45,810 nucleotides of DNA from Lachnospiraceae bacterium. GTDB taxonomy: Bacteria > Bacillota > Clostridia > Lachnospirales > Lachnospiraceae. A model generated the notes under the pieces. That model did not search any database and was not told where the DNA came from. It saw only the letters and a program-made list of their open reading frames with translations. The position numbers and the translations under genes are program-made. Positions within the stretch are counted from its first letter, which is position 1. Every line of letters starts with the position of its first letter. Shown here piece after piece: positions 35,928 through 40,228 of this stretch. The stretch is taken from the NCBI GenBank assembly GCA_021770755.1, contig JAETQI010000037.1, forward strand, positions 1 through 45,810, written 5' to 3'.

Positions 35928-37226
35928 ATGGAACGAAATATGATGCAGGAGTTGATCGAATGGAAGAACATGGGTGCAGGAAGAATGCCGCTTCTTCTGC
36001 ACGGAGTGCGCCAGGTTGGGAAAACATATATTCTGCGTGAGCTCGGCGACAGGTTTTTCCAAAATACGGTATATATCAATTTTGAGAGGATGCGTATCGT
36101 GTCAGACTATTTTCAGGGCGAGCTGTCCCCGGACAGGATCATCAGACTCTTGGAGGAGTATTTTAACCAGAAGATCATACCGGACAGGACACTTCTCATT
36201 TTCGACGAGATCCAGGCGTGCGAACGTGCGCTGACTGCGTTGAAATACTTTTGCGAGGAGGCGCCGGAGTACCATATCGCAGCAGCGGGAAGCCTGCTGG
36301 GAGTGGCGATCAACCGTGAAAAATATTCGTTTCCGGTTGGAAAGGTCCTTATGAAAACATTGTATCCGCTTGGCTTTGATGAATTTCTGCGCGCTGTAGG
36401 AAAAGGGTACTTTGTGGAAATGATAAGGGAACACTACAGCAGGATGCAGGAGCTGTCGGCGGCGGCGCACCAGGAATTGTCTGAATGGTACTACAGATAT
36501 CTATACATTGGCGGAATGCCGGCGGCAGTCAATGAGTATCTGGACAGAGGTTCGCTGATCAATGTGCCGGAGATACAGAGCCTGCTGCTGAACGCCTACA
36601 CTGCGGACATGGCAAAATACACCACAGACAGCGAGAGCACCAGGATTAGAAATGCCTATATGTCAATGCCGGCACAGCTTGCAAAGGAAAATAAAAAATT
36701 TCAGTATAAGCTGATCCGAAAAGGTGCGACGGCGGGACTCTTTGGGGACTCGATCGCGTGGCTCGTCTATTCGGGCGTCGTGCTCCGGTGCGACAGGGTG
36801 AGCAGGGGCGACATGCCCCTGACAGCTTTTCGCGATGTCTCCGCGTTTAAACTGTATCTGTCCGATGTCGGGCTGCTGTCGGCGTTTACAGGGATAACGC
36901 CGGAGAGCATCGTCAGAAAGGAACTGTCAGAGATCTACCGTGGCAGCCTGACGGAAAACTATGTCGCGCAGGCGCTGAGGACAAACGGCTATAACTTGTA
37001 CTACTGGACAAGTGATTCGCCGGCGGCGGAGGTGGATTTTGTGATACAGCAGCACGGGCGGGTGATCCCCATCGAAGTGAAGTCGGGAGAGCATGTCAGG
37101 GCAAAAAGCCTGCAGCATTATATCAAGATGTATGCACCTGAGAGGGCGATCCGGCTGTCGGAGAAGAATTTTGGCGTGGAGGGGGATCTCTGCGCCGTGC
37201 CGTTGTATGCGGCGTTTTGCATCTGA
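35928..37226 (+). CDS. AAA-type ATPase with DUF4143 C-terminal domain
   Basis: A 432-residue protein of the ATP-binding/DUF4143 family: Walker A GVRQVGKTYILRE near residue 30, Walker B TLLIFDEIQACERAL, sensor-type AAAGSLLGVA, and a C-terminal DUF4143 part ending in the nuclease-like EVDFVIQQHGRVIPIEVKSG (E-D-ExK pattern). AAAAGGAGAAC precedes the ATG. These proteins are widespread in anaerobes and their role is unproven, often thought to be defence or mobile-element related. The next gene begins 20 bases after its stop. Confidence 0.85.
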   Translation: MERNMMQELIEWKNMGAGRMPLLLHGVRQVGKTYILRELGDRFFQNTVYINFERMRIVSDYFQGELSPDRIIRLLEEYFNQKIIPDRTLLIFDEIQACERALTALKYFCEEAPEYHIAAAGSLLGVAINREKYSFPVGKVLMKTLYPLGFDEFLRAVGKGYFVEMIREHYSRMQELSAAAHQELSEWYYRYLYIGGMPAAVNEYLDRGSLINVPEIQSLLLNAYTADMAKYTTDSESTRIRNAYMSMPAQLAKENKKFQYKLIRKGATAGLFGDSIAWLVYSGVVLRCDRVSRGDMPLTAFRDVSAFKLYLSDVGLLSAFTGITPESIVRKELSEIYRGSLTENYVAQALRTNGYNLYYWTSDSPAAEVDFVIQQHGRVIPIEVKSGEHVRAKSLQHYIKMYAPERAIRLSEKNFGVEGDLCAVPLYAAFCI

Positions 37227-37246: not shown

Positions 37247-39199
37247 ATGATGAAAAAGCGAAAAAATGTGTTGAAGGAACCGCTGCAGTCGGAGCAGGAG
37301 TTTGCCGTATTTCTAAAGCGGGTGCGTGAAGAATCGGGCGTAACGGGCGAGGAGCTGGCGGAGGGACTGATGGATGCCAGCCAGCTCTCCAGGATCGAGA
37401 GTGAGATCAGACCCGTCCCGAAAACGATGCGAGACCGCCTCCTGGGGCGGCTTGGCGTCACGTCGGACAGATATGAAAACCTGCTGAACAATGAGGATCA
37501 TGCGGAGTGGGAATGGCAGCACAGGATCCTGTGGGCGGTAGACCGGAGAGACTTTCCGAAGGCAGGGAATCTGATCAGGGATTACGAAAGGCAGGATCCC
37601 TCCGACCGGATGAGACGCCAGTTCTGCCTTATGATGCAGGCAGAATGCGTAAAGCTCCAGGGGGCGGACAGGGCGGAGCTTGCCCGCCTTTACGGGGAGG
37701 CAGTGCGGCTGACTGTGCCGGAGGTGGATCCGGTCTATATACAGCCAAAGCTGTTGTCCGTGCTGGAAGTGAACATGGTGCTGGAGTATGAGTGCTGCAG
37801 GGCGTCAGCGTCCGGTTTCGCTGACAAGTGCAGATACTGGCTGGAGTATGTGAAGGATTCCCTGTATGATGAGCTGTCCACAGCGCAGATCTATTCTAAG
37901 ACCGCGTATTATTATCTGAGGGAGATCCTGGCTGAGGATCATACGATGGCGCAGGCAGAGCTGCAGCAGTTACTGCAGCTCTGCGATGACGTGATCGAGC
38001 TATTGCGGAATACGGGGCGTGCGTTTTATCTGGTGGAACTGTTGGAGTATAAGGGAAAGATATTGACAGATATGGTCAGGCAGCTCGCGGAGAGCGGGAA
38101 ACAGCAGGAGGCCGTTTTGTATCAGAATGTCCTGAAGGAGAGCGCCGAACTGGAAGCGCTGCTGCGGGAACTCTATACAGCATACGGCATACCAGTCTAT
38201 ATGCAGGACTGTACGTACCTGTACCGACAAAGATGGGTGTACGCGGTCGGCGATGTCCTGCGCATCCGCAGAAATATGCTCGGACTGACGCAGGAGGAAG
38301 TCTGTGACGGGATCTGTTCTACCAAATCCCTCCGAAAGACGGAGCAGGGAAAGTCGGATATGCAGCGGGAACCGCTTGGCAGGATCATGAGGCGCCTGGG
38401 GTTGTCCAGGGAGGTTCAGAAGACAGCGCTTGTGACGAACGACAGGAGTGTGCTGGAGCTGATGACAGAGATGACATACAGCCGGAATAACCGTGATCCG
38501 GTCAAAGCCAGGTTACTGTTGGAGCGGTTAAAGGCAAAGGTCTGTCTTGAGATACCGGAAAACAAGCAGTATGTGATGGAGGCGGAGGCATCGCTTGACC
38601 TGATGGAAGGGAAGATCACGGAGGAAGCGTTTGCAGTAAGGGAGGCGGACGCACTCAGGTGTACGCTGAAAGCAGAAAAAATATATGAAGCCGAAGATGT
38701 GTACCTGACGGAAACAGAGATGTCATGTGTCTGCAAAAGGATTCAGGGGCTTGAACAGGCGGAAAAAAGGGAGGTGATCGGGTTCCTGATACACTTCTTT
38801 GAAAAGTTTGCAGAGAAAGATCAGCTGTCAGAGTATATTTCCATGTATGAATTTGTCATGGCTATTGTCGCGAGCGAGCTTGGCAATCTGGGAGAGTACC
38901 AGCTGGCAACAGAACTGGATAAAAAAGCTTTAAGAGAAGTATTAAGATGCAGAAGACTATATATGGTGAATGAGTTTCTTTATGATATGTTGTGGAATGA
39001 GAAGGAACAGAAGGCGTGTAACGGGCAGCAGATGGAGACAGTAAAAATGACTGATGGCTTGCAAGTTTGTCGCGCACTCAGTCATTTTAGTAAAAGAACA
39101 TTTTATGAAAAACTTTATAATGATAAAATAGATCAGTCTACACGAGTGTCTGAAGAAGGAGTATCATTACATGGTGCAATGGATTCTTCATCAGAGTAA
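37247..39199 (+). CDS. large regulator with two XRE-type HTH domains and helical repeats (RRNPP-like)
   Basis: A 650-residue protein. An N-terminal helix-turn-helix (about 18-72: FAVFLKRVREESGVTGEELA, DASQLSRIESEIRPVP) is followed by about 260 residues of helical repeats. A second XRE domain (about 336-392: GDVLRIRRNMLGLTQEEVC, STKSLRKTEQGKSDMQ) and another 250 residues of helices follow. HTH plus TPR-like repeats is the layout of peptide-responsive RRNPP/Rgg regulators, though two HTH units in one chain is unusual. AAAGGGG precedes ATG 37247. Its 3' end overlaps the convergent peptide gene at 39133-39297. Confidence 0.78.
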   Translation: MMKKRKNVLKEPLQSEQEFAVFLKRVREESGVTGEELAEGLMDASQLSRIESEIRPVPKTMRDRLLGRLGVTSDRYENLLNNEDHAEWEWQHRILWAVDRRDFPKAGNLIRDYERQDPSDRMRRQFCLMMQAECVKLQGADRAELARLYGEAVRLTVPEVDPVYIQPKLLSVLEVNMVLEYECCRASASGFADKCRYWLEYVKDSLYDELSTAQIYSKTAYYYLREILAEDHTMAQAELQQLLQLCDDVIELLRNTGRAFYLVELLEYKGKILTDMVRQLAESGKQQEAVLYQNVLKESAELEALLRELYTAYGIPVYMQDCTYLYRQRWVYAVGDVLRIRRNMLGLTQEEVCDGICSTKSLRKTEQGKSDMQREPLGRIMRRLGLSREVQKTALVTNDRSVLELMTEMTYSRNNRDPVKARLLLERLKAKVCLEIPENKQYVMEAEASLDLMEGKITEEAFAVREADALRCTLKAEKIYEAEDVYLTETEMSCVCKRIQGLEQAEKREVIGFLIHFFEKFAEKDQLSEYISMYEFVMAIVASELGNLGEYQLATELDKKALREVLRCRRLYMVNEFLYDMLWNEKEQKACNGQQMETVKMTDGLQVCRALSHFSKRTFYEKLYNDKIDQSTRVSEEGVSLHGAMDSSSE

Positions 39200-39297
39200 G
39201 GATATTCCGGCAGGTCAGGCAATAAAATAGATCCATGCTGCATAAAAAACACGAGTGTAAGAACTAACAGTACATTCCTCAAATTAAGATGTTTCAT
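39133..39297 (-). CDS. 54-aa secreted peptide precursor candidate
   Basis: A 54-residue ORF: basic start MKHLNLRN, a hydrophobic core VLLVLTLVFFM of signal-peptide type, then SILLPDLPEYPYSDEE and an acidic tail with one Cys. GGAGG lies nine bases before the ATG and a candidate promoter is at 39352-39380. Its last 67 bases are antisense to the end of the dual-HTH regulator. Layout and size match pheromone precursors of RRNPP systems (as SHP with Rgg). The mature signal and any function are inferred. Confidence 0.6.
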   Translation of the reverse strand: MKHLNLRNVLLVLTLVFFMQHGSILLPDLPEYPYSDEESIAPCNDTPSSDTRVD

Positions 39298-39351
39298 TCT
39301 TAAATACCTCCATATCCGTTTTTGTTTTGAAATTTTTCTTGGGATATTCTT

Positions 39352-39380
39352 ACTGTAAATAAGCAGAGGATTCATTGCAA
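39352..39380 (-). promoter_or_regulatory. candidate promoter of the secreted peptide gene
   Basis: On the minus strand TTGCAA (39375-39380), 17 bases, TACAGT (39352-39357). The -10 box is weak, as expected for an activator-dependent promoter. The inverted repeat at 39379-39420 touches the -35 box. Confidence 0.45.
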
Positions 39381-39420
39381 GGGACAGAATTGGAAAGTTA
39401 AATTGTTGATTCTGTCCCTT
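39379..39420. promoter_or_regulatory. operator-like 12-bp inverted repeat
   Basis: AAGGGACAGAAT (39379-39390) and ATTCTGTCCCTT (39409-39420) are perfect inverted arms 18 bases apart, directly upstream of the peptide gene's -35 box. There is no U tract and no upstream gene reading into it, so a protein-binding site for a dimeric regulator is more likely than a terminator. Confidence 0.5.
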
Positions 39421-39443
39421 GTATGATTGCCAAGGCAATGCTA

Positions 39444-40228
39444 GTATAACAAATATTAAGTTGTTGATAGTTTAAATAGTGGCTGCTTTATCGGGATTAA
39501 TTTCATCTATTTATATGTCCAATGATAAACAATCGGATCAGCATTGATTTCATAGAAGTAGCGGTATATCCACTCTGACAATTCATCCTTTGAATTCACA
39601 CGAATGCCCTTTAACATCTGCTTTGTCACTTTACTAAAGAAACTTTCGATCATGTTTAGCCATGAAGTGTGTGTCGGTGTAAATACAAACATAAAACGTC
39701 CCTCAGGTAATGTTGCAAGAAACCGGCGTGTTTCCTTTGATGTATGCGCCGAATGATTGTCCAGGATCAACCGTATGGTGTCACCCTCCGGGTATTTTGT
39801 ATCGAAAATCTTTAAAAATTCGATAAAATCACAACTTTTGTGTGTCTGGCTGACCAGCGGGATTGCTTCACCTGACAGCAGATCGATTCCGCAAGCAGAG
39901 ACAGCGTTTCAAGTCGCACATACTCGCAATCCCTGCAGACATAACCGTTTTCCTTTGTCGGGTTATGGTCGGGATATTTGTTGGCAATAGCTTGGATGCC
40001 GGGTTTTTCATCATAGGAAACTGTGTGTGTCAGATACCCGCATTCCGGTATGGTGACAGTCCCGTCTTCGCCAAACTGCATCTCGACCTGTTTGTAAACC
40101 AGAAGGACGTCATGCATCTTATTCTCAAAATCAGGATCTTTCCGTTCAAGATAATACTTGATCCTGAATGGCTTTATATCCATTTATACCACATATTGAA
40201 ACTATCAACAACTTGATTTGCGTTATAC
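39444..40228 (-). mobile_element. internally deleted IS630-family element
   Basis: Both ends are present: CTAGTATAAC then seven divergent bases then AAGTTGTTGATAGTTT at 39441-39473, repeated inverted at about 40199-40231. The TA dinucleotides at 39442-39443 and 40229-40230, each inside CTAG, are the expected IS630 target duplication. At about 785 bp it is shorter than the usual 1.1-1.2 kb, lacking the N-terminal third of the transposase. Confidence 0.82.
39507..40183 (-). pseudogene. IS630 transposase, 5'-deleted and frameshifted
   Basis: Two frames together give the catalytic half of an IS630 (DDE) transposase. The upstream frame (40183 to about 39890) starts at DIKPFRIKYYLERKDPDF and includes VSYDEKPGIQAIA with the first catalytic Asp. 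The downstream frame (about 39890 to 39507) has DLLSGEAIPLVSQTHKSCDF, LILDNHSAHTSKET (second Asp) and TPTHTSWLNMIESFFSK (Glu). Loss of one G near 39893 explains the switch. The N-terminal HTH domains are missing. It is not active by itself, but an intact copy elsewhere could mobilise it. Confidence 0.85.

Follow-up and report, generated by a model that had tools for sequence, protein, structure and literature searches.

The window analysed here is a 45,810-nt stretch of DNA from a Lachnospiraceae bacterium. In it, the gene of a 650-aa regulator meets a convergent small gene for a 54-aa propeptide of the secreted type, and upstream of the latter lies a palindrome (Table 1). The regulator frame extends further upstream if a TTG start at 37217 is taken. 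Regulator, peptide and palindrome had originally been read, from the sequence of the window, as the receptor, signal and operator of a complete candidate circuit of peptide quorum sensing. As then noticed, the two genes overlap at their 3′ ends by 67 nt (39133–39199), and the small gene has a ribosome-binding site and a signal-like core; the peptide begins with a basic stretch followed by a hydrophobic core, charge and hydrophobicity being the sole criteria for its export signal. The inverted repeat, predicted to be 12 bp long, is perfect over both arms but measures 13 bp. Its outermost TTG starts the −35 box of the peptide promoter, which reads TTGCAA, 17 nt, TACAGT on the minus strand; the −10 box is poor, in line with the weak promoter predicted. 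On the side away from the peptide gene, the outer TTG likewise starts a promoter-like element, TTGTAT-17-TAGTAT. Between this outward promoter and the next plus-strand genes there is a remnant of a DDE_3 transposase with an adjoining minus-strand ORF (39507–40183), so the outward target of the window's own operator may be interrupted.

Table 1. Features of the regulator–peptide locus in the window, and features named at loci of relatives
Feature	Position or locus	Strand	Basis or remark
Dual-unit RNPP-type regulator, 650 aa	37247–39199	+	ORF, HTH domains, paralogues, relatives, alignment
First HTH, residues 18–74	37298–37468	+	Best Pfam HTH_31 stretch
Second HTH, residues 334–386	38246–38404	+	NCBIfam couple_hipB stretch, E 1.6e-5, far under the family cut-off and used solely to place this HTH
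Second RNPP-type unit, residues 319–650	38201–39196	+	Match of N-unit and C-unit profiles, PlcR match
Secreted-type propeptide gene, 54 aa	39133–39297	-	ATG start, convergent; equivalents in relatives, pN/pS
Candidate region of the mature signal: C-terminal block S-I-A-P-C-N-D-T-P, conserved	39157–39183	-	Pattern by eye
Ribosome-binding site GGAGG of the peptide gene	39307–39311	-	Sequence
−10 box TACAGT of the peptide promoter	39352–39357	-	Sequence; logo TAnAnT at the same spacing
−35 box TTGCAA of the peptide promoter	39375–39380	-	Sequence, logo
Operator palindrome, left arm, CAAGGGACAGAAT, 13 bp	39378–39390		Sequence, recurrence
Operator palindrome, right arm, ATTCTGTCCCTTG, 13 bp	39409–39421		Sequence, recurrence
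Outward promoter-like element TTGTAT-17-TAGTAT, reading right	39419–39447	+	Sequence; two-way arrangement in relatives
Gene of a 120–122-aa HTH protein	L049:7289–7657; L189:4440–4799; L197 near 6341		A-type subgroup
TIR protein behind operator	L189		Thoeris-like PADLOC matches; peptide gene on the other side of the palindrome
SLATT/DUF4062 operon behind operator	L178		
Metallophosphatase with STAND domain behind operator	L177		
FRG/TIR-TPR/ATPase operon behind operator	L197		
ABC-3C CTD1 protein	L172		Cap4 nuclease match under cut-off; LmuA 6e-27
NRPS-like protein behind operator	L166, L169		
Radical-SAM proteins behind operator	L186, L200		
Radical_SAM gene faced by B-type operator	L051, L076, L079, L086, L090		The window's genome is among the five
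Similar leader after single half-site promoters	L167, L174, L175, L183, L186, L188, L190, L192, L194, L195, L196, L199, L200, L201		

The regulator and its relatives

Pfam models for XRE-type HTH domains each matched two stretches of the 650-aa protein (HTH_31, 1.3e-12; HTH_3, 2.7e-8), and a Pfam search with this protein alone did not find RNPP_C or TPR. The score against the antitoxin family couple_hipB was 24.8 bits, well under its cut-off of 71.65. The protein divides into halves of 318 and 332 aa, and profiles of the N- and C-units were homologous with a probability of 99.7 (E 1e-26, 295 columns); the two halves also matched each other when only the members of the A1 alignment were used (E 5e-11, 153 columns). 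Outside the genus, two genomes have between them three loci (L105; L111 and L119) where the halves are encoded by separate, adjacent genes of 308–319 aa, and a convergent peptide gene comes after the second half gene. By these comparisons, the regulator is a tandem fusion of two RNPP-type units, each composed of an HTH and helical repeats.

Searched against PDB, a profile of eight single-unit relatives retrieved PlcR over its full length (E 9.5e-21), with profile positions 1–300 aligned to PlcR residues 1–283, and by this profile PlcR is the nearest solved relative. The further matches comprised RapH (1.8e-4) and entries labelled as ComR (from 5.7e-4), and TPR proteins unrelated to signalling, such as kinesin light chain and designed TPRs, also scored, although lower. 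RNPP_C was found at E ≤ 0.01 in five of the eight single-unit relatives (best E 1.9e-8), and a profile of the C-unit with the window protein as its first row matched PlcR residues 7–242 (E 5.3e-8). Through the single-unit and C-unit profiles, the helical-repeat domain is homologous to those of known RRNPP/RNPP members. The six best PDB matches of the fused-protein profile were one MutR-family entry, three labelled only 'Transcriptional regulator', which we take to be Rgg, and two ComR entries (E 0.002–0.016), a weak match confined to the HTH regions. The original prediction of two XRE domains joined to helical repeats, as in a doubled RRNPP/Rgg regulator, is therefore borne out for the doubled RNPP architecture; its likeness to Rgg holds for the fused profile, for which Rgg/ComR-type entries come first, but not for the single-unit profile, for which PlcR does. 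At 650 aa, the protein exceeds the empirical limit of 250–500 aa that RRNPP_detector sets for receptors, and for this reason we file it as a variant of RRNPP and not as a typical member.

The window's genome contains six matches to the regulator, including three strong paralogues besides the one in the window (53, 51, and 31% identity). Relatives were detected at E ≤ 1e-20 in 15 of 98 genomes, the window's own included, all from the same genus; in a wider sample of the family, 21 of 397 genomes (own included), or 19 of 334 genera, matched the profile at E ≤ 1e-25. A scan of named genomes yielded 37 regulator loci, every one titled Lachnospiraceae; the genome of Lachnospiraceae bacterium A4 has several of the copies. 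Viral contigs, scanned with the A1 pattern, contained no relative, and we discarded a phage-borne circuit on these grounds. In one A-type subgroup, the gene of a 120–122-aa HTH protein precedes the regulator, behind a copy of the operator (Table 1).

The convergent peptide gene

Convergent ORFs of 40–70 aa with a ribosome-binding site, a basic start and a hydrophobic core, and with their stop between −100 and +150 nt from the regulator stop, were present at 30 of 34 regulator ends from the same genus, 16 of 27 from other genera and 8 of 324 control ORF ends. With a widened criterion (35–80 aa, up to 520 nt past the regulator stop), which was set after the four same-genus exceptions had been seen, these figures became 34/34, 17/27, and 13/324; the same-genus ends include two C-terminal pieces of broken regulators (L019 and L021), and three loci (L083, L087, and L093) were placed among the other genera by judgement. 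An earlier control run gave 7 of 214. The idea that a secreted ORF always follows the regulator is thus sustained within the genus, but 10 of the 27 ends from other genera had no peptide ORF under either criterion.

The basic and hydrophobic start is conserved among the peptides of the relatives, and by eye the pattern [IV]xP[CLM]xD could be recognised in the C-terminal block of many of them; in the window this block, S-I-A-P-C-N-D-T-P, would be the region of the mature signal. The regulator is accompanied, like RRNPP receptors, by an adjacent small propeptide gene with an export signal, as judged by charge and hydrophobicity. In five loci (L003, L014, L016, L022, and L023), there is extra sequence between operator and peptide gene, which is partly alike between loci and resembles a small mobile insert.

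Among the 35 same-genus loci with the ORF (L009 counted), the two genes overlap by 4–22 nt in 23, by 41 nt in one and by at least 67 nt in three (the window, L011, and L069), and they are apart in the remaining eight, with a gap of up to 493 nt. The overlap of 67 nt is therefore unusual and common to few relatives. Convergent transcripts from genes that overlap in 27 of 35 loci could, in principle, produce an antisense RNA that controls the regulator mRNA in place of any peptide. We find this highly improbable, because the overlap is 4–22 nt in 23 of the 35 loci and absent from eight, and the ORF, its start site and its amino-acid sequence are kept despite a short or absent overlap. Within-group pairs of 33 peptide genes in nine groups had a pN/pS of 0.32 (pS 0.50, pN 0.158) after masking the last 9 codons, or 22 codons for the window, a masking that is incomplete for the longer overlaps of L011 (67 nt), L031 (41 nt), and L069 (101 nt). 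Values for single groups ranged from 0.15 to 0.56, and the weakest was that of the window's own group (0.56), with single pairs at 0.42–0.89 over 32–45 codons. Conservation of the ORF is hence seen with most overlap codons masked, and the peptide gene evolves as a protein, with weaker conservation in the window's own group.

The palindrome and the genes behind it

Across the 4.7 Mb of the window's genome, a palindrome of the form GGGACAGAAT-N10-35-ATTCTGTCCC turned up twice, once in the window and once adjoining the locus of a paralogue. The ORF and the operator are more than chance, because the palindrome is so rare in the genome and both recur in relatives. The A half-site, AATTCTGTCCCTTG, was found in 12 of 45 genomes: all ten with an A-type regulator, with 1–8 copies each and 50 in total (a full palindrome counting as two), and two of the 35 without it (G024 and G064), with one copy each; the reversed control pattern gave zero matches in the 45 genomes. 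The copy in G024 sits in 290 nt that are identical to a contig end of G014, and may be a mis-binned piece. B-type regulators pair with a different palindrome, CAATGCCCAGAGTTGTCCAAA...TTTGGACAACTCTGGGCATTG, whose half-site, searched with one mismatch allowed, was found in 12 of 60 genomes, corresponding to 12 of the 13 with a B-type regulator (the exception being G021) and none of the 47 without. In both the A and B types, the operator is conserved and goes with the regulator subtype; relatedness among the compared genomes means that the individual counts do not represent independent events.

A logo of 75 A half-sites showed a TAnAnT box in the place of the −10, after 17 nt from the −35, with the consensus TTGnnn-17-TAnAnT, where TTG was fixed by the pattern used for collection and the −10 was not. 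Several copies per genome, and the single ones in the regulator-less G024 and G064, might be expected if the palindrome were a terminator or a dispersed repeat unconnected with the regulator. The co-occurrence with regulator subtypes (10/10 vs. 2/35 for A, 12/13 vs. 0/47 for B) leads us to reject this explanation, to which we concede very little probability; also opposed to it are the different but similar palindrome that goes with the second subtype and the −10-like TAnAnT 17 nt from the −35.

An inner dyad, GnnCA-N4-TGnnC, is readable in the half-sites of both A and B, and two regulators that are more distant (L083 and L095) have similar palindromes nearby. Between regulator and palindrome of the first of these (L083:6980–7300), the start of a peptide is visible with an apparently broken frame. 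In L027, the B-type peptide gene lacks the B operator but is preceded by a different short inverted repeat, which hints that operator specificity may have switched. With two mismatches allowed, operator-like matches in the window's genome included C54:77202, C59:4912, and C88:56809, and the reversed control gave two matches in all. In G003 (C56), one exact half-site stands without a palindromic partner, and its promoter context is poor.

The original prediction considered the operator in front of the peptide gene; our searches extend it to further targets. In the window's genome, it precedes two paralogous regulators, one encoded in an operon and the other by a gene, and it also lies before a TIR operon, the gene of a 305-aa protein (PADLOC TIR effector, 2.9e-7; Pfam Response_reg) and a two-gene operon without assignment. 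Besides those in Table 1, the genes preceded by operators in relatives code for secreted-type proteins or form several operons without assignment. B-type operators face a Radical_SAM gene (E 6.8e-11 to 1.4e-13) in five of the ten loci read, and other genes, or none clear, in the remaining five.

In ten regulator-bearing genomes, 3 of 19 TIR_2 matches lie no more than 1.3 kb downstream of exact half-sites, against some 0.01 expected by simple arithmetic from the 50 exact half-sites, and both SLATT_1 genes sit just downstream of an operator (one exact half-site and one with two mismatches); these domains were picked after the targets had been seen. Enrichment in PADLOC families was not apparent at E ≤ 1e-5, with 34 families from 35 hand-picked operator-linked proteins and 32 from 57 controls. 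These controls came from 60 ORFs in unrelated stretches of the window's genome, after the removal of two ORFs with weak homology to the regulator and a third that lay at the end of a stretch. As many as 14 of the 34 operator-linked families were due to a single FRG protein, and common domains, those of ABC ATPases among them, are recognised by many PADLOC models; the names pVip, mad3, mad8, and AriA on radical-SAM/ABC proteins were set aside as non-specific. A link of the operator to defence genes is thus suggestive.

Such conflict-type genes behind the operators, the weak scores of the HTHs to antitoxin models and the position of a short hydrophobic ORF opposite an HTH protein would also agree with a membrane-active toxin or bacteriocin-like peptide, the HTH protein being its control or immunity partner. 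We deem this unlikely, considering that the polar C-terminal block of the peptide is conserved besides the hydrophobic core, that relatives match PlcR/RNPP across the repeat domain and beyond the HTH, and that the operator recurs at other promoters.

Single half-site promoters are followed at 14 loci by a similar leader (Table 1), with about 70 nt in common in most pairs by blastn and up to around 200 nt. The leader often has a small hairpin, GATAATC-n-TTATC, further on, after which the sequences diverge, and several copies are near contig ends. In an Rfam scan of six leader loci, none of the families reached the gathering score. The shared stretch could be a regulatory leader, or it could mark a point where gene cassettes insert.

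Proposed circuit and comparison with known systems

The conserved pair, the selection on the peptide and an operator that tracks the regulator subtype support the circuit of regulator, signal and operator first proposed. The conservation of the pair in the genus, the selection on the peptide at the protein level, the subtype-specific co-occurrence of operator and regulator, the tandem structure and the RNPP homology are all demonstrated at the level of sequence; secretion, import, binding, the sign of regulation and signalling itself we infer. We estimate at roughly 80% the probability that the locus is a peptide quorum-sensing circuit of the RNPP type, similar to those of PlcR and Rgg, whose receptor is a tandem fusion. 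The promoter under operator control would drive synthesis of the 54-aa propeptide, and the signal-like N-terminus would direct its export. Trimming would leave a C-terminal peptide around the conserved IAPCND block; once taken up again, this mature peptide would bind the helical-repeat domain of the 650-aa regulator. Two HTHs per chain and one inner dyad per half-site suggest one fused protein per half-site; from this geometry, the two HTHs of a regulator would read one half-site ending in the −35 TTG, such that a single fused protein might replace a dimer of PlcR or Rgg, and the full palindrome would be occupied by two of them.

Placed beside the −35 of a weak promoter, the regulator most likely activates the peptide gene, which would close a positive loop, and operons elsewhere that share the half-site would likewise be activated. 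The edge of the operator is the −35 TTG itself, and an operator that touches the −35 box is compatible with repression too; the same circuit could then work with the opposite sign, the free regulator blocking the −35 box and the peptide releasing the block. This is a possibility that we take seriously but do not favour, because the −10 TACAGT of the window is poor, as in an activator-dependent promoter, and because PlcR and many Rgg proteins are activators.

More broadly, and with the odds evenly balanced in our opinion, the Lachnospiraceae would contain a new branch of peptide quorum sensing with covalent-dimer receptors, each chain comprising two PlcR-like units, in which several paralogous circuits of one cell share nearly the same operator, a portable −35 element placed over scattered conflict/anti-phage-type, NRPS-like and radical-SAM operons. 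If so, TIR, SLATT, FRG, Cap4-like, NRPS-like and radical-SAM operons would be under the control of population density. The operator allows the regulon to be read from sequence, and through this regulon, genes for natural products and of the phage-defence type would respond to cell density. As a short peptide would serve as the signal, the idea is directly testable with a synthetic peptide.

The arrangement resembles PlcR–PapR of the Bacillus cereus group in the combination of HTH and helical repeats and in the small secreted propeptide encoded next door, and the PlcR box, a dyad with a 4-nt centre, is similar to the GnnCA-N4-TGnnC readable in the half-sites. The differences are the two units per chain, so that one fused protein may span what requires a dimer of PlcR, and the convergent peptide gene, since the PapR gene is co-directional with that of PlcR.

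As to the Clostridium systems Qsr and QssR, named in the large-scale RRNPP search (PMC10075063), they belong to the same superfamily and likewise come from clostridial relatives, with receptors of single-unit size versus the fused one here. According to that paper, validated receptors span 285–473 aa and the search used receptors of 250–500 aa; fused receptors of 620–680 aa lie outside this range, and therefore this branch of gut Lachnospiraceae may have been missed. The main text of that paper does not name Lachnospiraceae, and the terms 'fusion', 'two HTH' and 'Lachnospir' are absent from the main text of a study on RRNPPA evolution (PMC9765709). No report pairing RRNPP quorum sensing with Lachnospiraceae was found in the open-access literature, and the branch is undescribed as far as the literature searched goes.

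The peptide gene has its closest parallel in group III of the streptococcal Rgg-SHP systems, where it is likewise downstream of the regulator and convergent (PMC3679016) and overlaps it (PMC13361665). The control of radical-SAM peptide operons by Rgg-SHP, described in the latter account, is in turn comparable to the B-type operators that face a radical-SAM gene. Unlike in group III, the receptor here is about twice as long and the operator is different. The propeptides are of about 47–60 aa with a polar C-terminal block, versus short hydrophobic SHPs of 22–26 aa in the four examples of PMC3679016; the peptide of the window, with 54 aa and a polar C-terminal half, does not resemble a short SHP. 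Convergent downstream peptide genes and Rgg control of radical-SAM peptides are thus already known from group III in streptococci, whereas the fused double receptor, a family with a new type of propeptide and a target set defined by the operator are new.
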